A stretch of 34,514 bases of DNA from positions 1 through 34,514 of the forward strand of contig JAEZHY010000158.1 in NCBI GenBank assembly GCA_023416335.1. Reading direction: 5' to 3'. Below the pieces are notes generated by a model. The model was given only the letters and a program-made list of their open reading frames with translations. It had not been told where the DNA came from and made no database searches. Numbering within the stretch: position 1 is the first letter of the stretch; every line of letters begins with the position of its first letter. This DNA is from Pseudomonadota bacterium (GTDB lineage Bacteria > Desulfobacterota > Syntrophobacteria > Syntrophobacterales > Syntrophobacteraceae). Shown piece by piece: positions 754 through 23,163 of this stretch. Made by a program: the position numbers and the translations under genes.

Positions 754-848
754 GTGATCGCACCCAGAATATTCAGGCCCACCGGTCCGGCTAATCCGCC
801 GGAGAGAGCACAATGAGCGCACGAACTGTTTACGAAGGAGTAAGCCCC

Positions 849-1826
849 ATGAGGAAAGGACTGTTTCCCCTTTGTGTGTGCATGATCTTAGGTTTTCTTC
901 TAATCGCTCATGTTCCTCCGGCCCGCGCGGAGGAGTATCCCTCCAGACCGATAAGTCTCATCGTGCAGTTTACGGCCGGGACCTCCACAGACATAATCGC
1001 ACGCAAACTTTCGGATGAAGTATCCAGGAAACTGGGGCAGCCGGTGGTCTGCGTAAACAAACCCGGGGGAGGAGGGACGATAGGAGTGGCCGAAGTCCTG
1101 CGTTCCAAGCCCGATGGCTATACCATCGGCTGTGCGAATATGCCCGCCCTGGCAATCATTCCTCAGATGCAACCGGTATCCTACGATCCTTTGAAAGATG
1201 CGGCCCATATTTGTGCTATCGGGCCTTATGAGTATGCTTTTTACGTCAAGGCCGATTCCCCCTGGAATTCGCTGAAAGATTTCGTCGAGTTCGCCAAGGC
1301 CCATCCGGGCGAGGTCATCTACGGTTCGCTCGGGGCCGGATCAACGAACCATCTTATCTTTGCAAGACTTGCCCAGGAGCACGGCCTCAAGATGAAGCAC
1401 GTCGTCTTCAAAGGTGACGGCGAACTCATTCCGGCCGTGCTCGGCGGTCACGTCGCCATCGTGTCCGGTTCGCCCGCAGCCGTTGTGCCTCAGGTAAAAG
1501 CCGGGCAGTTAAAGCTTCTTGCCATTACGAACAAAGACCGCTGGCCATACCTGCCGGAAGTGCCGACCCTGCTTGAGCTTGGCTACAGTTTTTATCAATC
1601 TTCGTATTTATCCCTGGTAGCACCCGCCGGCACTCCCGAACCCATAATGAAGAAGCTCGAAGATGCGTTTCGACAGGTGCTGGAGAATCCGGACCTGAAG
1701 AAGGAAATGGAGGAAAAGTTCTTTACCACTCTGGGCTATCAGAGCGGGAAAGACTACGGCCGGTACATCGAAGAGCAGTTTGCCTTTTACAAGGACTTCC
1801 TGAAACAGGAAGGACTTATAAAATGA
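849..1826 (+). CDS. tctC: Tripartite tricarboxylate transporter substrate-binding protein (TctC/Bug family)
   Basis: This periplasmic receptor captures a carboxylate and delivers it to the TctAB membrane complex. The protein has 325 residues, normal for the Bug/TctC family. It has a signal peptide of about 27 residues (basic start, hydrophobic core, ARA cleavage site before EEYPSRPI). The family landmark YPSRPISLIVQFTAGTSTD follows, along with later conserved stretches such as FVEFAKAHPGEVIYGS. I chose the ATG at 849 because a clear ribosome binding site (GAAGGAG, about 834-840) precedes it; an in-frame ATG at 813 lacks one. The gene overlaps tctB by 4 bases (ATGA), so the two are translationally coupled. 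TctC receptors bind citrate, other carboxylates or aromatic acids; the ligand here cannot be deduced. Confidence 0.93.
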   Translation: MRKGLFPLCVCMILGFLLIAHVPPARAEEYPSRPISLIVQFTAGTSTDIIARKLSDEVSRKLGQPVVCVNKPGGGGTIGVAEVLRSKPDGYTIGCANMPALAIIPQMQPVSYDPLKDAAHICAIGPYEYAFYVKADSPWNSLKDFVEFAKAHPGEVIYGSLGAGSTNHLIFARLAQEHGLKMKHVVFKGDGELIPAVLGGHVAIVSGSPAAVVPQVKAGQLKLLAITNKDRWPYLPEVPTLLELGYSFYQSSYLSLVAPAGTPEPIMKKLEDAFRQVLENPDLKKEMEEKFFTTLGYQSGKDYGRYIEEQFAFYKDFLKQEGLIK

Positions 1827-2290
1827 ACTCGCTGGACAAAGCCGCATCTCTTGTCTGGCTTGCACTGGGGGTGTTGCTGGCGGTGCTTTCCCTCAGGCTC
1901 GATGTTGGTTCGTTCCATGAACCGGGCCCCGGCTTTTTACCCCTGCTGACCGGCATCATGCTGAGTCTGAGTTCCGGCGGACTGTTGCTCAAGCAGTGCC
2001 TGAAGCAGGGGGGCGGCGGTTCCGCCAATCTGTGGGCCGGGCTTCACTGGGGCAGAGGAGTGACGGTTCTTTTGGCCCTGGTTGTCTATAGCCTCACGCT
2101 GGAGTTCCTGGGTTACATAGTGGGCACCTTCCTGCTGATGGTGGGCCTTTTTTCCCTCTATGACCATAGAAGGTGGTGGGTGGCGCTCGGAGGCAGCATC
2201 GCCGTCATTTTGGTGACTTACATTGTTTTTTGCTACTGGCTCCAGGCGCAGTTTCCGGCGGGCGTTCTCTCCTGGTTTGGAGTGAGATGA
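1823..2290 (+). CDS. tctB: Tripartite tricarboxylate transporter small membrane subunit TctB
   Basis: This is the small, poorly conserved membrane subunit of the TTT transporter, which works with TctA in the inner membrane. The 155-residue protein has about four hydrophobic segments: near the N-terminus, then after FHEPGPGFLPLLTG, and two in the C-terminal half. The motif GPGFLP is typical of TctB. Its start codon overlaps the tctC stop and its stop overlaps the tctA start, giving a tightly coupled C-B-A operon. Nothing unusual is seen. Confidence 0.9.
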   Translation: MNSLDKAASLVWLALGVLLAVLSLRLDVGSFHEPGPGFLPLLTGIMLSLSSGGLLLKQCLKQGGGGSANLWAGLHWGRGVTVLLALVVYSLTLEFLGYIVGTFLLMVGLFSLYDHRRWWVALGGSIAVILVTYIVFCYWLQAQFPAGVLSWFGVR

Positions 2291-3792
2291 TGGAAATGAT
2301 CGGACAGGTTTTTACTGGTTTTCAGGTCGCATTACAGCCGGCAAACCTGCTCTACTGCTTCATAGGGGTCCTCCTTGGGACCCTTATAGGCGTCCTGCCC
2401 GGCATAGGACCGGTCGCGACGATCTCGATTCTGCTGCCGATCACGTTCAAGATCACGCCCGTTTCGGCAATAATAATGCTCGCGGGCATTTACTACGGCG
2501 CCCAGTACGGCGGATCGACTACCTCCATTCTGTTGAACATACCCGGGGAGGCGACCTCGGTTGTCACGACTCTGGACGGCTACCAGATGGCCAGGCAGGG
2601 TCGAGCCGGACCGGCCCTGGGTATGGCCGCATTCGGCTCGTTCATTGCCGGCAGTATTTGCCTTCTGGCTATGACGTTTCTGGCAAAACCATTCGCCAGT
2701 CTCGGGTTGTTGTTCGGCCCGCCCGAGTACTTCGCTTTAATGATCCTGGCGATGGTCATCCTGATCTACCTGGCTCAGGGATCGTTGCTCAAGGCTCTTA
2801 TTTCAGCTCTGTTTGGGCTGGCTCTCACCTTCGTGGGGACGGACAACCAGACGGGATCTCTTCGCTTCACGTTCGGACAAATGTACCTTGCAGATGGGTT
2901 CGACCTCGTTCCACTGATAATGGGACTTTTCGGACTCTCCGAGGTTCTGCTCAATGTCGAGCAGGAACTGACTCAGGATGTCCTGAACACCAAAATAGTC
3001 AATCTCTTTCCAACCGTTGCCGATTGGATCCGGTGCAAATGGGCCATTTTGCGAGGCACGGTCATTGGTTTTTTGCTGGGTATTTTACCGGGTGCGGGAC
3101 CGGTCATCTCCACGTTTGTCGCATACAGCCTGGAGAAGAAAATATCCAAACATCCCGAGCAATTCGGTAGCGGGGTTATAGAGGGCGTGGCGGCCCCCGA
3201 GTCGGCCAACAATGCTTCGGCCCAGGGCGCTTTCATTCCCCTGTTTTCGCTTGGAATACCCCCCAATGTGACCATGGCCATTCTTTTCGGTGCGCTCATG
3301 ATCCACGGGCTTCAGCCCGGGCCGCTTCTCATAAAGGACCACCCCGATTTCTTCTGGGGAGTGGTAACCAGTATGTATGTCGGCAATGTTATGCTGCTCG
3401 TCTTGAATCTGCCGCTCATTCCGCTTTGGGTTAAGGTCCTGAAAATCCCTTATCCGATTCTATTTCCCATGATCGTCCTTTTCTGCGTGGTCGGGGCATA
3501 CAGCCTCAACAACTCTTCAATCGATATCCTTGTCATGACCTGTTTTGGAGTCATCGGCTATCTGATGAAGAAACTGGAGTACGAAGCCGCTCCAATGATA
3601 ATGGGATTCGTTCTGGGGCCCATCCTGGAGACGAGCTTCAGGCGATCCCTGGTAATGTCTGGAGGATCTCTCGGAATCTTTGTCTCACGGCCGATTGCGG
3701 TAGGAATAATCGTGCTGGCTGCCAGCCTGCTTGCAATTTCACTTTTTTCGAATCTGCGCACGGTCAGGCCTAAAACCGATGAGGTAATATGA
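2287..3792 (+). CDS. tctA: Tripartite tricarboxylate transporter large permease TctA
   Basis: This is the main permease subunit of the TTT system. It is thought to use an ion gradient to bring in the substrate delivered by TctC. The protein has 501 residues, the normal family length, with about 11-12 hydrophobic segments. It carries two repeats of the TctA signature (GTLIGVLPGIGPVATISILLP near residue 30 and GFLLGILPGAGPVISTFVAY near residue 267), plus YYGAQYGGSTTSILLNIPGE and GVAAPESANNASAQGAFIPL. The frame is open upstream to 2173. I chose the ATG at 2287 because it overlaps the tctB stop and begins at the conserved N-terminus; ATGs at 2290 and 2296 are also possible. Confidence 0.93.
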   Translation: MMEMIGQVFTGFQVALQPANLLYCFIGVLLGTLIGVLPGIGPVATISILLPITFKITPVSAIIMLAGIYYGAQYGGSTTSILLNIPGEATSVVTTLDGYQMARQGRAGPALGMAAFGSFIAGSICLLAMTFLAKPFASLGLLFGPPEYFALMILAMVILIYLAQGSLLKALISALFGLALTFVGTDNQTGSLRFTFGQMYLADGFDLVPLIMGLFGLSEVLLNVEQELTQDVLNTKIVNLFPTVADWIRCKWAILRGTVIGFLLGILPGAGPVISTFVAYSLEKKISKHPEQFGSGVIEGVAAPESANNASAQGAFIPLFSLGIPPNVTMAILFGALMIHGLQPGPLLIKDHPDFFWGVVTSMYVGNVMLLVLNLPLIPLWVKVLKIPYPILFPMIVLFCVVGAYSLNNSSIDILVMTCFGVIGYLMKKLEYEAAPMIMGFVLGPILETSFRRSLVMSGGSLGIFVSRPIAVGIIVLAASLLAISLFSNLRTVRPKTDEVI

Positions 3793-3868
3793 TCGGCCGG
3801 CGTGGGATATGAGTTCCTGCAACCCGGTGCGGAAACGATGAAATTATTAACTCTATACGAGGTGCTCA

Positions 3869-4633
3869 GTGCCTAAAGGCGATAACGTTACAACCAACTC
3901 CGGCGGCGTGCAGAGCCTGCAGCGCGGAATTGCCGTGCTTCGCGCCGTCGCCAAATCCAATGAGCATGGCTCAACCCTTTCGAGCATTGCCGCCGAACTA
4001 AACCTGAATGTAAGCACAACGCACAGGATGCTCAGGCTGCTTGTGGCGGAGGGGCTCCTGAGCTTCGATAACAATACCAAGCTGTACAAGCTGGGGATGG
4101 ATCTTTTTCTGATGGCCGGAACTGCGCAGCAGTTCACGTTTCGCGACCGGTTCAGGCCGGCCCTTGAACGAATCGCCCTTGAAGCCGAGGACATGGTCGC
4201 ACTGCTTGTTAGAACCGGCTACGATTCGATCTGTTTGGACAGGGTGGAAGGAAAGTATCCAATTCGGGCCATCACAATCGAGATTGGAACGCGCCGGCCG
4301 CTGGGTATAGGTGCCGGCAGCCTGTCTCTTGTCGCATTCCTTCCGGAAGAGGATCTCGAGGCAGTTCTGCGCGCCAACGAGCCGCGCTATCCCCAGTTCC
4401 GCAATCTCACCAGTGCCGATATTAAAAGCATCGCCGAGACTTCCAGATCCCGGGGATATGTTCTAAGCGACGGGGTCTTCCACAGGGGAATCGCTTCGGT
4501 TGGGGTGCCGATCTGCGAAGATGGACAGGTGTTGGCTGCCATCTCGGTTTCGGCAATCCAGGAGAGGATGGACCCCGATCGCGTAGGAAGGATTGTGAAG
4601 CTGATCAGAGATTCCGCAGAAGTTTACTTATAG
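3869..4633 (+). CDS. IclR-family transcriptional regulator
   Basis: This 254-residue protein has the usual IclR length. It has an N-terminal winged helix-turn-helix (LSSIAAELNLNVSTTHRMLR, about residues 38-57) and an effector-binding domain with FRPALERIALEAEDMVALL, CLDRVEGKYPIRAI and the C-terminal GIASVGVPICEDGQVLAAIS. The start is a GTG at 3869 with GAGGTG about five bases upstream. It lies between tctA and the flavoprotein gene on the same strand, about 75 bases after tctA, so it may be part of one long transcript. Its paralogue at 1-409 lies on the other side of the transporter. One or both probably control this locus in response to the imported acid (inference). Confidence 0.92.
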   Translation: MPKGDNVTTNSGGVQSLQRGIAVLRAVAKSNEHGSTLSSIAAELNLNVSTTHRMLRLLVAEGLLSFDNNTKLYKLGMDLFLMAGTAQQFTFRDRFRPALERIALEAEDMVALLVRTGYDSICLDRVEGKYPIRAITIEIGTRRPLGIGAGSLSLVAFLPEEDLEAVLRANEPRYPQFRNLTSADIKSIAETSRSRGYVLSDGVFHRGIASVGVPICEDGQVLAAISVSAIQERMDPDRVGRIVKLIRDSAEVYL

Positions 4634-4710
4634 GGGGTCAGCCGGGGCTGCATCCATGAATAGGTTCATAATAGTGCGGTTTTCATTTAAATTCAGGGAG
4701 TTGAATTGAG

Positions 4711-6570
4711 ATGTTTTCGATCGGTGAAGCAGATCTCGTTATCATAGGCGGTGGGGCAGCAGGGGCTATGGCCGCCGTTTACGCCCACAGGACCAATCCT
4801 CGGACCAGGATCGTCGTCCTGGATAAAAGCAAAATCGAAACATCCGGCTCGGCAGGCCGGGGCATGGATGCTCTAAACACCATGGCCGTACCTCCCTACT
4901 CCAGCGCAGAAGATGTGGTGGAACATCTGACCAAAGTCTCCGAGGGGATCCTTGACCAGGAAGTCGCTCACTGCTTTGGCTCGCGCTGTCCGCAGATCAT
5001 CGAGGATCTCGAAAAAATCATGAACAGGAAAAAAGGCGATCTTTTCCCGGTGGACGAAAACGGAAACTACCGCCTTTTCTATCTGCATCCCATCCAAAAA
5101 CCCCTGCTGCTGCCCATGGACGGAGAGGAAATGAAAAGGGCGCTCGGAAAGGCCGTGAGGGACACGGGAGCCCAGGTTTTCGACCGAACCCCGGCGCTCA
5201 AAATCGTAACGGAAAACGGCAGAGTCACCGGCGTATTTGCATTCAACATCCGCACCGGGCATTATTTCTACATCAAAACGAAGGCTGTTTGCCTCACCAC
5301 CGGCGCCGCCGGGAGGATAGGACTCGCCTCTTCCGGATATCTTTCGGGATGCTACGAATTTCCGGGCAATGCCGGAGACGGCTATGCCATGGCCTACGAG
5401 GCAGGGGCTGAGCTGGCGAGCATGGAATGCTTCCAGGCCAACGTTCTTTTAAAGGACCACCAGGGACCGTCCTGCGGCTACGTGGCCGCCCCTCGTGGTG
5501 CCTATGGAGTAAACCGGCTTGGGGAGCGCATCTGGAATCACGGGTACTCTTCCGGGGATGGAAGACTGGCATACTGGAAGCACTTTGCCGAAGGCAAGGG
5601 TCCAACCTATCTGAAACTGGATCATTTGCCGGAGGAGACTATCCGGGTCATCGAAAAAATACAGTTCGGAAACGAACGCACCAGCCGAGGCATGTTTCAC
5701 AAAAATCGGGGGCAGGACTACCGCCGCGAAAAATCGGTGGAGCAGGCCCTTGCGGAAGAGGTTGGAGCCTGCGGAGGGCATTCCTGCTCCGGTATACTGA
5801 GCAACAAGGATGGGGCGACAAATGTCGGGGGGCTTTATGTCGCGGGAGACGTCGACGCCGGCCTGCCCCATTCCTACCTGGGCGGAGCATTGGTAATGGG
5901 TGGACTGATCGGGGAGAGGGCCTCGCAATACGCCCTGGAAGCTTCCGGGCCTGAAGAGCCTCCGGCCCTGAAAGCCTGGATCAGGAGGGAGATTGACGAA
6001 TTCGAAGCCCCCCTCAAAAAAAACAAGGGCTTGCCGACGCACCTCGTGGAATTCAAGGCCAGGGCCAGGATTCAGTACTATTTGAAACCGCCCAAGAACC
6101 CGGAATATCTGAATATAGCCATCTGGTGGATGGAACGAATCCGCCATGAAGACCTCCCGCAGATAAAGGCTGTCGATTATCACGATCTGCTGAAAGTCTA
6201 TGAAATCGGATGTATTCTGAGGGTAGGGGAAATGATGGCCAGGGCAAGCCTTTTCCGGGACGAGAGCCGTTGGGGATACATGCACTGGCGCTCGGACCTT
6301 CCCTTCAAGAAAGAGGAATGGGAGGGACATTGGGCCATTGTACGCAAGAGCGGGGACGGAATGGAACTGTCACGGCGGGCTGTTCCTCCCCTTAAGTGGG
6401 ATTTTCCAAGGTCGTTGGAGTACTCCTACCCGAAGCTTTCTTTTGATATCGGGAAGTCTTTTGAGAAAGGGCCGCACTGGAAAAATCCCGAACGAGACAC
6501 CTGGATGGAAGAGCACCTTGAAGAACAGGGGATGACAACCCCCAGACGCTTCATGCCCGGAAAGGAATAG
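4711..6570 (+). CDS. AprA/FrdA-superfamily FAD-binding oxidoreductase, adenylylsulfate-reductase alpha-like
   Basis: This 619-residue flavoprotein belongs to the superfamily of fumarate reductase, succinate dehydrogenase and adenylylsulfate reductase alpha subunits. The N-terminus has the FAD dinucleotide-binding motif (VIIGGGAAGAMAA, glycines at 13-15 and 18), then GSAGRGMDALNT. A second FAD region near the middle reads VGGLYVAGDVDAG. There is no signal peptide or membrane segment, so it is cytoplasmic. It is followed 7 bases later by a two-cluster ferredoxin, the partner arrangement seen for AprA and AprB. True AprA is slightly longer, and no sulfate-activation gene is nearby, so I do not call it dissimilatory APS reductase. 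Its position behind tctCBA and an IclR gene suggests it acts on the imported carboxylate; the reaction is unknown. Confidence 0.8.
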   Translation: MFSIGEADLVIIGGGAAGAMAAVYAHRTNPRTRIVVLDKSKIETSGSAGRGMDALNTMAVPPYSSAEDVVEHLTKVSEGILDQEVAHCFGSRCPQIIEDLEKIMNRKKGDLFPVDENGNYRLFYLHPIQKPLLLPMDGEEMKRALGKAVRDTGAQVFDRTPALKIVTENGRVTGVFAFNIRTGHYFYIKTKAVCLTTGAAGRIGLASSGYLSGCYEFPGNAGDGYAMAYEAGAELASMECFQANVLLKDHQGPSCGYVAAPRGAYGVNRLGERIWNHGYSSGDGRLAYWKHFAEGKGPTYLKLDHLPEETIRVIEKIQFGNERTSRGMFHKNRGQDYRREKSVEQALAEEVGACGGHSCSGILSNKDGATNVGGLYVAGDVDAGLPHSYLGGALVMGGLIGERASQYALEASGPEEPPALKAWIRREIDEFEAPLKKNKGLPTHLVEFKARARIQYYLKPPKNPEYLNIAIWWMERIRHEDLPQIKAVDYHDLLKVYEIGCILRVGEMMARASLFRDESRWGYMHWRSDLPFKKEEWEGHWAIVRKSGDGMELSRRAVPPLKWDFPRSLEYSYPKLSFDIGKSFEKGPHWKNPERDTWMEEHLEEQGMTTPRRFMPGKE

Positions 6571-11733: not shown

Positions 11734-11762
11734 TTGACAAAATCCTCCGGGCAATCTATGCT
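11734..11762 (+). promoter_or_regulatory. Sigma-70 promoter of the aroF-pheA transcript
   Basis: A perfect -35 TTGACA (11734-11739) is followed by a 17-bp spacer and TATGCT (11757-11762), a good -10 element. Transcription would start near 11769, about 26 bases before the leader-peptide ATG at 11795. Confidence 0.75.
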
Positions 11763-11794
11763 TCACGCAATAACAAAAATTAGAGGAATATTCC

Positions 11795-11905
11795 ATGTAT
11801 TCAGGCAACTCTGCTCACATTTCGGATGGATGTATGTTCGACGGCCGCTTTTTTGCGCCCTTCTTCGGCTTTTTCTTTTTTAGGTGCATCCGCCTGGTGA
11901 GCTGA
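11795..11905 (+). CDS. Phenylalanine-rich leader peptide of the aroF-pheA attenuator
   Basis: This 36-codon reading frame starts at ATG 11795 after a strong ribosome binding site (AGAGGAA, 11782-11788) and ends with TGA at 11903-11905. The second half reads MFDGRFFAPFFGFFFFRC and contains nine Phe codons, four of them consecutive (11870-11881). This is the hallmark of a Phe-sensing leader such as that of E. coli pheA. The peptide has no separate function: ribosome position on the Phe codons decides which downstream hairpin forms. A second in-frame ATG at 11834 would give a 23-residue version but has a weaker ribosome binding site. Confidence 0.88.
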   Translation: MYSGNSAHISDGCMFDGRFFAPFFGFFFFRCIRLVS

Positions 11906-11996
11906 AGTATTGGAATGGCGCCGGGTGGATTCAGAAATCCCCCGGGGCCGACAGCTGGTCCAAGGACCCCGAGGGATTTTTCCCCCGGGGTTTTTT
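11888..11996 (+). promoter_or_regulatory. Phenylalanine attenuator with five alternating RNA segments
   Basis: Five segments can pair alternately. Segment 1 is 11888-11894 (ATCCGCC, inside the leader peptide), segment 2 is 11917-11931, segment 3 is 11936-11949, segment 4 is 11967-11976 (CCCCGAGGGA) and segment 5 is 11981-11990 (TCCCCCGGGG). Segment 1 pairs with GGTGGAT at 11924-11930. Segment 2 pairs with segment 3. Segment 3 contains the same TCCCCCGGGG as segment 5, so both compete for segment 4. A ribosome stalled on the Phe codons leaves 1 free, so 1:2 and 3:4 form and transcription continues. A ribosome at the stop codon covers 1, so 2:3 and the 4:5 terminator form. Segments are read directly; the switching model is inference. 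Confidence 0.75.
11967..11996 (+). terminator. Attenuator terminator hairpin upstream of aroF-pheA
   Basis: CCCCGAGGG pairs with CCCCCGGGG (one A-C mismatch) around a T-rich loop, followed directly by six T. It is a conditional Rho-independent terminator 34 bases before the GTG start of the structural gene. Confidence 0.85.
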
Positions 11997-12029
11997 GTTT
12001 TTATCTGTTTGGACCATTGGAGGATTGCG

Positions 12030-13952
12030 GTGCTTCTCATTGTCAAAAAAGGAAAAACGGCGGAAGAGATCGAAAAGCTCAAAGAGATTCTGCGCTCGGA
12101 CGGCTATCTGATCAAGGAAATCGAAGCGGTGTCCGGGACGGTCCTCGGCATTGTGGGGAAGATGTACAAGGAAACCGCCTATTATGAGTCCCTGCCGGGC
12201 GTGGAAAAGGCAGTTCCCGTCTCGAAGCCCTACAAACTGGTGAGCCGCGAGCTTCACCCCGGCCCTTCCATCATCAAGGTCGGCGATGTCGCCGTTGGTG
12301 GGGATCGGCTTGTGGTGATCGCCGGGCCCTGCGGCGTCGAGGACAGGGAGAGGACGATGGAGATCGCACGCACCGTGCGCCGCCATGGTGCAGTGCTCTT
12401 CCGGGCGGGCGCCTTCAAGCCGAGGACTTCGCCTTATTCCTTCCAGGGGCTTGGCGAAGAAGGGCTCAAGATCCTGAGAGATGTAAGGGAGGAAACCGGG
12501 CTTGGCATCGTTTCGGAAATGACTTCCCCCAGCCAGGCCGACCTTATGGTCAAATACGTGGACGTTGTCCAGGTCGGCGCCCGGAACATGCAAAATTTCG
12601 AGCTTCTGAAATCCGTCGGCCGGATCGGAAAGCCGGTTCTGCTCAAGCGCGGGCTTGCGGCCACCATCGAGGAATGGCTCATGTCGGCCGAGTACATCCT
12701 GTCCGAGGGCAACGACCAGGTCATACTTTGCGAACGCGGAATCCGCACATTCGAGCGCTACACCCGGAACACCCTCGACCTTACCGCCGTCCCGGTGATA
12801 AAGAAGCTTACCCACCTTCCCATTATAGTCGACCCGAGCCATGCGACAGGAATTCGAGAAAAAGTCAGCCCGATGGCGCGTGCATCGATTGCGGCGGGGG
12901 CCGACGGGTTGATTATCGAGGTGCACACCGAACCGGAAAAGGCACTGTCCGACGGTCCGCAGAGCCTCTATCCCGAACAGTTCGAGCAACTCATGCGGGA
13001 CCTCTACGTCATCGCGCCGGTGGTCGGCAAACAGCTCGATTACGCCTACCTGGACAAGTCGGCGAAAATGAAGTCTCAAAGGCTCGAAAGCAAGGCCCCG
13101 GCAGTCATCGCCTACAGCGGCGAGCCCGGATCGTTTTCACAAAAGGCATGTCTCCAGTTCTTCGGCCCCGACGTGCCTACGAGGAACTGCTCATCTTTCC
13201 GGGAAGTATTCGACCTCGTGAACACCGAACAGACCGCCTTCGGCATAGTGCCGGTCGAAAACACCCTTTCCGGCAGCATACATGAAAACTATGAACTGCT
13301 TCTGGAGTACGATCTCAAAATAGTGGGTGAGGTCACCTTGAGAATCAAGCATAACCTGCTGGGCCACCCCGATGCCTCGATCGAAGGGCTGGAAAAGATT
13401 TGTTCACACCCGCAGGTTTTCAGGCAATGTCGCAAGTACCTGGAAAAACACCCCGGCTGGGAGTTGATTCCGGAACGGGATACGGCGACCGCGGTCCGCA
13501 AGGTCAAGGAAGGGAATGATTTGAGGCACGCCGCCATTGCCGGCGAAGATGTCGACCATGTGTACCGGATGAAAGTGCTGAAGGAGGGGATAGAGACCGA
13601 TCCACGCAACTTCACGCGGTTTGTGGTGATCTCGGTCAATGAATCTCTTCCCGGCCCCAGGAACAAGTCTTCTCTCATCTATTCCGTGAGCGACAAGCCG
13701 GGGGCGCTCTTCGAAACGCTCCGAATATTTGCGGAAAACAATATCAACATAGTCAAACTCGAATCGCGCCCGATTCACTCCAAGCCATGGGAGTACCTGT
13801 TCTACGTCGATCTGGAAATTGACGTCGTCGAAAAAAGCAACGTATGGATCATGGAAGAGCTTGCCAAGCGGACTGAATTCCTCAAGTTTCTTGGAAGCTA
13901 TTGCAAAGGGGCGGAGGAGAAAAGTGAGTTGTCCCATCCGTCGGACAACTGA
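12030..13952 (+). CDS. aroF-pheA: Fused DAHP synthase (type I-beta) and prephenate dehydratase
   Basis: This 640-residue protein joins the first shikimate-pathway enzyme to the phenylalanine-branch enzyme that converts prephenate to phenylpyruvate. Residues 1-70 resemble the ferredoxin-like regulatory domain of Thermotoga DAHP synthase. Residues 95-340 are the aldolase barrel, with AGPCGVED (metal-binding C101), [11 protein letters not shown] (130-140), LKRG (205-208) and DPSHATG (268-274). After a short linker, residues 356-535 are prephenate dehydratase with the catalytic TRF motif (529-531). Residues 545-625 are an ACT domain with GALF (558-561) and ESRP (578-581), which bind Phe in this family. 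No chorismate mutase domain is present. The GTG at 12030 has GGAGG six bases upstream; the frame extends further upstream but runs through the attenuator. Confidence 0.93.
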
Positions 13953-21840: not shown

Positions 21841-23163
21841 ATGGATTCGAAGCAGCGTGTTCAGGATTTTATTTCCAACCTGAAATGGCGGGATTTGACC
21901 GAACAGGTGAGACATCAGAGCAAGCGATGCCTGCTCGATACTCTGGGAGCACTCATCGCGGGGACCCGCACCCCGGTAGCCGAACTGATGGCCGCCTTCG
22001 CACTGGAGCAGTATCCGGGCAAAGAGACGACAATCCTTGCGGGCGGCTCGCGTTCCTCCGCGGTCGGGGCCGCCCTGGCCAACGGCTTTTCGGGCAATGC
22101 TCTCGACATAGACGACGGATACCGAATGGTCAAGGGCCATCCCGGGGCGTGCATTCTGCCGGTCATACTTGCGGCATGCGAGACCGCGCATTCCTGTTCG
22201 GGCGAAGAGTTCCTGACGGCCCTGGTCGTCGGCTATGAACTTGGTATCCGCGCAGGGGTTATCCGTCACGCCCTTTACCCCACCTATCATGCGTCGGGGA
22301 GCTGGGGCGCACTGGCGGGCGCCGCTGCTGCCGGAAGGCTCCTCGGGTTGGATGCGGAAACGATATGGCAGGCGATGGGGGCCGCGGAATATCATGCCCC
22401 GATTGCGCCCATGATGAAGGGGATCGATGTCCCGGCCATGGTAAAGGATGCGATAGGTTGGGGCTGCATGGTCGCAATGGCATCGGTGCTGATGGCCCGG
22501 AAAGGGTTCACCGGAATCGAACCCCTGTTCGGCGACGGTCCGGATGAGGATTGGATTGCCGGAATCGGAACACGATACGAAATTCTGAACCTCTACTTCA
22601 AGCCTTACGCGGCGTGCCGGTGGGCTCAGCCCGCTGTGGCGGGTGCTCTCAAGCTCGCGGCGGAGCACGCTCTAAGAAAAGAGGAAATCCTGTCGATAAC
22701 GATCAGGACCTTCTCTGCCGCCGCAGCCCTCAGCCGGGCCCATCCGAAAAATACGGAGGAGGCCCAGTATAATCTGTCATTCCCGGTTGCAGCCGCCCTG
22801 ACCGATGGGGAAGTGGGGCCGCGCCAGGTTCTGCCGCCCCGGATGCTGAGCGGGGATCTTCTTTCGCTTGCCGACAAGGTGGAGGTGGAAGTCGAAGACC
22901 AATACGAACGGGCATTCCCGGCCAAAGCCCGGGCCGAAGTCGTAATCCGCACGACGGACGGCAGGATGCTTCGCTCGGGTACGATGGAAGCGATCTGGGA
23001 ACCCCCGGATACTCTGCCCACCGATGAGGAGTTGCGGAAGAAGTTCTTCTGGCTTGTCGAGCCCGTGCTCGGAGGCGAGCGGGCAGGGGAGTTGGACGCT
23101 CTGATCTGGAACTTCGAGCGGGAAGCGGACGCGCGCGTTCTGCCGGGGAAGTGTGTACGTTAA
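21841..23163 (+). CDS. MmgE/PrpD family protein
   Basis: This 440-residue protein belongs to the MmgE/PrpD family, whose best-known members are 2-methylcitrate dehydratase and cis-aconitate decarboxylase. It has the family N-terminus (KRCLLDTLGALIAGTRTPV), the region GNALDIDDGYRMVKGHPGA with the active-site-like D-D-H set, and YKPYAACRWAQP-like text in the C-terminal half (FKPYAACRWAQPAVAGAL). No methylcitrate-cycle gene is nearby, so the substrate is uncertain and it is not called prpD. It lies 202 bases behind the osmoprotectant importer on the same strand, which may link it to catabolism of the imported compound (inference). Confidence 0.88.
   Translation: MDSKQRVQDFISNLKWRDLTEQVRHQSKRCLLDTLGALIAGTRTPVAELMAAFALEQYPGKETTILAGGSRSSAVGAALANGFSGNALDIDDGYRMVKGHPGACILPVILAACETAHSCSGEEFLTALVVGYELGIRAGVIRHALYPTYHASGSWGALAGAAAAGRLLGLDAETIWQAMGAAEYHAPIAPMMKGIDVPAMVKDAIGWGCMVAMASVLMARKGFTGIEPLFGDGPDEDWIAGIGTRYEILNLYFKPYAACRWAQPAVAGALKLAAEHALRKEEILSITIRTFSAAAALSRAHPKNTEEAQYNLSFPVAAALTDGEVGPRQVLPPRMLSGDLLSLADKVEVEVEDQYERAFPAKARAEVVIRTTDGRMLRSGTMEAIWEPPDTLPTDEELRKKFFWLVEPVLGGERAGELDALIWNFEREADARVLPGKCVR

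Follow-up and report, generated by a model that had tools for sequence, protein, structure and literature searches.

Directly upstream of a gene for a DAHP synthase-prephenate dehydratase fusion, we found an element that most probably (about 0.88 by our estimate) acts as a ribosome-mediated transcription attenuator, which would sense charged Phe-tRNA and control the fusion gene. It lies in a 34,514-nucleotide stretch of DNA from a member of the Syntrophobacteraceae (hereafter the window), where positions 11734-12030 hold, immediately 5' of the gene, a promoter-like site, a Phe leader open reading frame (ORF), a chain of competing RNA segments and an intrinsic terminator. Judged by sequence, the element is a genuine conserved Phe attenuator of classical mechanism, with a hairpin chain longer than in textbook cases. 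Sequence comparison identified the ORF, its Phe codons, the segments of both alternative states, the terminator and the regulated gene, which are placed as follows.

11734..11762, + strand: promoter-like site, sigma-70-type, TTGACA-17-TATGCT (motif scan; pattern conserved upstream of relatives' leaders)
11782..11787, + strand: ribosome binding site AGAGGA of the leader ORF, ending 7 nt 5' of the ATG (sequence)
11795..11905, + strand: leader ORF, 36 aa, nine Phe (translation; Phe coding conserved in relatives)
11887..11900, + strand: segment B (segment 1 of the first-pass annotation), near the end of the leader ORF, pairs with C (folding; covariation)
11917..11931, + strand: segment C (formerly segment 2), pairs with B or D (folding; covariation)
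11936..11949, + strand: segment D (formerly segment 3), pairs with C or E (folding; covariation)
11963..11976, + strand: segment E (formerly segment 4), pairs with D or F (folding; covariation)
11981..11990, + strand: segment F (formerly segment 5), 3' arm of the terminator (folding; covariation)
11991..12002, + strand: U-run of the intrinsic terminator, TTTTTTGTTTTT (sequence)
12019..12023, + strand: ribosome binding site GGAGG of the structural gene (sequence)
12030..13952, + strand: DAHP synthase-prephenate dehydratase fusion gene, GTG start (domain profiles)

Translation of 11795-11905 gives the leader peptide MYSGNSAHISDGCMFDGRFFAPFFGFFFFRCIRLVS, whose first Phe codon is at 11837 and whose last is at 11879-11881. 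Among ORFs of 12 to 70 codons on both strands of the window, it is the only one with at least seven Phe in 16 codons. No ORF of that size with at least eight Phe in 16 codons turned up in 40 mononucleotide-shuffled windows, of which one strand each was scanned. A single site like TTGACA-17-TATGCT is not rare by chance (the 701 bases scanned would be expected to contain 0.6); of the 115 loci whose sequence reaches far enough, 80 carry a TTGAC-type promoter pattern 5' of the leader, where shuffles give 4.5. As evidence, the putative promoter is weak from the window alone and strong only through this conservation across loci. The fusion gene encodes a 640-aa protein in which a ferredoxin-like domain and DAHP_synth_1 are followed by prephenate dehydratase and ACT domains. 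From these domains, it is predicted to serve the first and penultimate steps of Phe synthesis, making it cognate to a Phe leader. In the protein tree, the window protein and a Syntrophobacteraceae genome share a ten-row group (support 100). Spirochaetota and a few further groups also have near-full-length matches to the protein. Elsewhere in the window, at 813-6570 and 21841-23163, lie TctC/TctA tripartite carboxylate transporter genes, a gene for an FAD-binding protein and an MmgE/PrpD gene.

Within the segment chain, TCCCCCGGGG occurs twice, at 11938-11947 and 11981-11990, and its common partner CCCCGAGGGA lies in between, at 11967-11976. Predicted helix energies in the window are -22.3 kcal/mol for B:C, -23.0 for C:D, -22.7 for D:E and -20.0 for E:F, the last being the terminator hairpin within 11963-11992 that precedes the U-run. 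The fold of 11914-12002 scored a z of -4.1 against shuffles, 1 in 200 of which was as good. A simple terminator scan of the window listed no terminator, probably because the stem carries a mismatch. The first-pass annotation, made from the letters of the window, had read much of this architecture correctly. It had claimed a consensus promoter, a 36-residue leader with nine Phe and a ribosome binding site, and a terminator in the same stretch; all three were found again, the last as a hairpin and U-run read from the sequence, folded and conserved in relatives. Its segments 3 and 5, said to share a sequence and compete for segment 4, are exact repeats with a common partner; its segment 1, placed inside the leader ORF after the Phe run, is segment B; and its five segments in two exclusive states hold for the window, with both states covarying in relatives.

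Relatives came from a scan of named genomes and three class-wide scans for the fusion protein (matches at E up to 1e-150 in 33 of 55, 92 of 241 and 1 of 42 genomes, some of them partial), giving 128 upstream regions, namely the window and 127 relatives. The element was recognised in 120 of the 128, a count that is partly selected because the recognition score includes Phe density and 16 loci of the named-genome scan (80 loci) were chosen after their leaders were known. Four of the eight element-less regions end at a contig end (L010, L089, L093, L197); in L111, L112, L157 and L170 upstream sequence is present and no element was recognised. Eight Spirochaetota fusion loci (L016, L018-L024) had no upstream ORF with at least five Phe in 14 codons; L021 has an ORF with four Phe in 14 codons, which looks dissimilar to the leader.

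Conservation of the Phe codons in relatives, on which the first-pass annotation had staked its proposal, is seen as a Phe frame kept over the 120 loci. The last 22 leader codons contain a median of six Phe (range three to nine), with Tyr in 29 loci and Trp in 22. In-frame TTN triplets in these codons encode Phe 754 times (T or C as third base) and Leu 22 times (A or G), that is, 97% Phe, while A or G is the third base in 289 of 567 TTN in the +1 frame and 38 of 391 in the +2 frame; this third-base bias of the in-frame triplets indicates that the U run is kept as Phe codons. Mixed Phe/Trp leaders occur in L158, L173 (FFFWWF) and L175, which suggests a joint aromatic sensor. Phe/Tyr-rich short ORFs (GYFYF-like) also lie 5' of a separate DAHP synthase gene in L060, L077 and L078, which are two Bacillota loci and one labelled Bacteroidetes.

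We infer that ribosome stalling, the order of folding and a response to Phe would combine as follows. When Phe is plentiful, a ribosome at the leader stop codon would cover B and C would pair with D, leaving E free to form E:F, and transcription would end within the U-run (11991-12002). With Phe-tRNA scarce, the ribosome would stall in the Phe run 5' of B, B would pair with C once C is made, and the freed D would form D:E, blocking the terminator and allowing read-through. The choice between termination and read-through would be kinetic, following the order of synthesis. In relatives that carry a further upstream segment, A, pairing of A with B should favour termination in an untranslated leader.

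Both states left a trace of covariation, which the first-pass annotation had proposed to look for in homologous leaders. In an alignment of 63 non-redundant leaders, 89.0% of cells were paired in the terminator state (A:B, C:D, E:F) and 25 of its 34 pairs had changed on both sides; double-changed cells numbered 183, compared with 59.6 in shuffles, and none of 500 shuffles, in which relatedness is retained in the counts, reached 183. For the read-through state (B:C, D:E), 90.7% were paired and 8 of 18 pairs had changed on both sides, with 21 double-changed cells against 10.1 expected and, with kinship likewise not removed, 0 of 500 shuffles reaching 21. Shifting the partners by one column lowered pairing to 54-62% in both states. 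Covariation of B:C is thinner than that of the other helices (3 of 10 pairs changed on both sides). The alignment indicates that the structures are mutually exclusive and both under selection. The earlier claim that the parity of the chain gives read-through on Phe starvation thus gains support, at the level of sequence, from the Phe codons, the gene, the promoter pattern and this covariation.

Attenuation at the leader could instead act mainly on translation or via Rho, not at an intrinsic terminator. Such modes are thought to operate in some attenuators of other bacteria, according to passages in PMC9413887 and PMC1262725. When 11769-12030 is folded, part of the sequence surrounding the GGAGG of the gene becomes paired, on which account we rate this alternative, with its translational layer, slightly higher. 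We still consider it quite improbable, given a strong, conserved terminator hairpin (11 of 12 E:F pairs changed on both sides in the 63 leaders) followed by a U-run, and a GGAGG that begins 16 nt beyond that run.

The switch proposed for the intrinsic terminator was followed by stepwise folding. In the window, the probability of B:C was 0.02 without a ribosome and 0.32 with one at the stop codon; with stalls 42, 39, 33, 30 and 27 nt before the stop it was 0.75, 0.78, 0.80, 0.80 and 0.69. It was low at the Phe codons 54, 51 and 24 nt before the stop (0.18, 0.12 and 0.23); the model of the window covers the eight Phe codons from 54 to 24 nt before the stop, the first of the nine (at 66 nt) lying outside it. 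Once C is taken, D:E forms with a probability of 0.80. Across the 120 loci, B:C passed 0.5 in 119 when the most favourable Phe codon was taken, an optimistic figure since it picks the highest of several values, and in 2 with the ribosome at the stop. High values at Phe stalls and low ones at the stop fit read-through on Phe starvation. Full-length equilibrium folding of 12 loci gave the terminator at every ribosome position tried (E:F 0.93-0.98). The folding of 11769-12030 with and without 11880-11900 masked, which the first-pass annotation had put forward, did not reveal the switch, giving the terminator state both times; the switch appears only in stepwise folding. Equilibrium folding is uninformative as a test of the switch, as the terminator wins under all conditions tried (12 loci; window), and the switch would rest on folding order. 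The same result is what an intrinsic terminator that acts constitutively, preceded by a U-rich ORF arising by chance and without a Phe response, would give, to which we assign a slighter chance still because the Phe reading frame is kept over 120 loci, the alternative state B:C, D:E covaries, the promoter pattern is conserved and Tyr- or Trp-codon leaders precede other aromatic genes.

In most relatives, the chain contains the sixth segment, A, which lies upstream over the Phe codons and pairs with B. Segment A is GGACGCTTC, covering the codons with which the final Phe run opens, and its partner B is GAAGCGTCC at the leader end. Where the third base of the A-side Arg codon changes silently, B shows a matching second-base change that alters the amino acid: of the 79 loci (among 120) in which the pattern is readable, the facing positions pair in 77 and fail in 2, the 77 comprising 56 C-G, 8 U-A, 8 U-G, 2 G-C, 2 G-U and 1 A-U. 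Silent changes matched by residue-changing ones indicate that RNA pairing is constrained rather than the peptide. This bears on an arrest peptide, in which the conserved leader ending would stall the ribosome on a ligand and not on an empty tRNA. An ending FGRFFFFRSVHPV or a near variant does recur in many leaders; however, its Ser is replaced by Asn, Ile or Thr where the paired Arg codon changes silently, the window leader ends in RCIRLVS, and endings in its clade include RSARPGC, SPIRPGG and MNPPG. Such variation with the paired codon fits a constraint on RNA and leaves the arrest peptide with as slight a chance as the constitutive terminator.

Within the attenuator, the A:B pairing is judged to have decayed in the window's clade. 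The window's own A:B reached a z of -1.9 against shuffles, short of the threshold of below -2, which was passed by 5 of 19 loci in its clade, 5 of 11 in a third group and 79 of 89 elsewhere, a difference that reflects at most a few evolutionary events, so that a Fisher test on loci does not count independent losses. The five-segment form of the window is probably a reduced six-part relay like that of the his leader, and since most relatives have the sixth segment, an odd number of segments was probably not the original state of the chain. That untranslated RNA would read through after decay of A:B is no more than a conjecture, as the stepwise model separates no clades: without a ribosome, B:C exceeded 0.5 in 16 of 19 loci of the window's clade, 8 of 12 of the third group and 71 of 89 others (95 of 120 overall), and the window itself gave 0.02. 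A CCCGGG palindrome common to C and D was rejected as a general design rule, being present in only 62 of 120 loci.

Outside the window's clade, a T-run (at least 6 T in 9) follows C:D in 73 of 101 loci, compared with 3 of 19 inside it; the window has 1 T in 9 at this place. From these counts, C:D with its T-run looks like a separate terminator outside the clade. If so, B:C would block the first terminator and D:E the second, and two terminators may be gated in tandem by one ribosome there.

Comparable relays are known. The his leader of enterobacteria has six segments, pairing as A:B, C:D and E:F or as B:C and D:E. In the trp operon leader of Escherichia coli, which has four, ribosome position selects the terminator or the antiterminator, and in gamma-proteobacteria Phe-rich leaders precede the Phe genes pheA and pheST, with an Rfam Phe leader family. 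The first-pass annotation had called the extra switch notable against four-segment attenuators; the five segments of the window stand, and the switch is less unusual than claimed, since multi-segment chains have a precedent in the his leader. The element would share with the E. coli trp leader a choice between terminator and antiterminator made by ribosome position, but has five or six segments in the window and its relatives instead of four. The gamma-proteobacterial pheA and pheST leaders follow the same logic, a Phe-rich leader before Phe genes, whereas the element in the window would control a DAHP synthase fusion in another phylum. With the his leader, the window shares a leader ORF with a codon run and the relay pairing scheme, and the whole model (Rfam His_leader, RF00514) aligned to it; unlike the his leader, it has Phe rather than His codons and a decayed A:B, and most relatives outside its clade have a T-run after C:D.

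RF00514 was the best sub-threshold match of the window (25.1 bits, spanning 11859-12000), and with a cut-off of 49 the window leader is not a member of that family. The Rfam trpB motif (RF04312) scored 20.7 bits, under its cut-off of 59. The Rfam scan of the window returned no attenuator family at the gathering cut-off, and the Phe leader of gamma-proteobacteria was absent among its 14 matches at E up to 10. Scans of relatives (8 loci and 12 loci, with L199, L200, L205, L207, L212 and L216 common to both) likewise gave no attenuator family at cut-off. Passages of PMC8632094 describe a uORFC-13-1 motif before aroF in Acholeplasma (24 sequences), for which attenuation was proposed, with a short ORF holding at least one Phe, a terminator and one further paired substructure. 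Like the element, it combines a short ORF containing Phe codon(s) with a terminator 5' of a gene for DAHP synthase; it belongs to another lineage, and those passages mention no chain of competing segments, unlike the window (PMC8632094). Titles and abstract openings among the literature matches listed, which exclude the surveys Vitreschak 2004 and Lopatovskaya 2010, do not name the element, and we make no claim of its absence from the literature.

With a covariance model of the leader, 47 of 55 and 164 of 297 genomes gave matches (E up to 0.1), many of these matches being weak. We hand-picked 20 places, mostly stronger matches away from known loci. One (L218) was the fusion gene again; an aromatic-rich leader was seen by eye in 18 of the other 19 (L199-L210, L212-L217) and was absent in L211. 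Nine of the downstream genes were identified by profiles and the remainder by likeness of their first residues. In other Desulfobacterota, the relay with Phe, Tyr or Trp leaders precedes trpE, TrpB-like and ADH synthase genes, and with an aromatic leader it is also found before genes for a PLP aminotransferase, an amino-acid-type periplasmic binding protein and phenylacetate-CoA ligase (PaaK). The U-rich columns of the model favour Phe and Tyr codons, yet Trp leaders were still found. In L204, L206 and L209, a Phe-rich leader (FAPRFFGYFFFKKSTQGSEG or near) precedes a TPR-YidD protein, which has no evident link to Phe.

Taken together, these observations allow a tentative reading, to which we give somewhat less than even odds: the lineage-specific relay may be a regulon-wide aromatic sensor of Desulfobacterota, with many tandem-terminator members, and the window's clade may have lost the first partner and the second terminator to become odd-numbered. 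The regulon of this reading, as tentatively drawn, would comprise the aroF-pheA fusion, trpE, trpB-like, ADH synthase, aminotransferase, periplasmic-binding transporter and phenylacetate-CoA ligase genes. If it is true, the odd-numbered relay of the window's clade may alter the outcome when the leader goes untranslated. Attenuation is best understood in a few model groups. Present at 120 loci and covarying in 63 leaders, the element would offer a clean test of how hairpin chains decide termination, and the same loci a test of two terminators gated by one ribosome and of the loss of parts in relay evolution. The covariance model could be used to find aromatic-amino-acid genes in Desulfobacterota.
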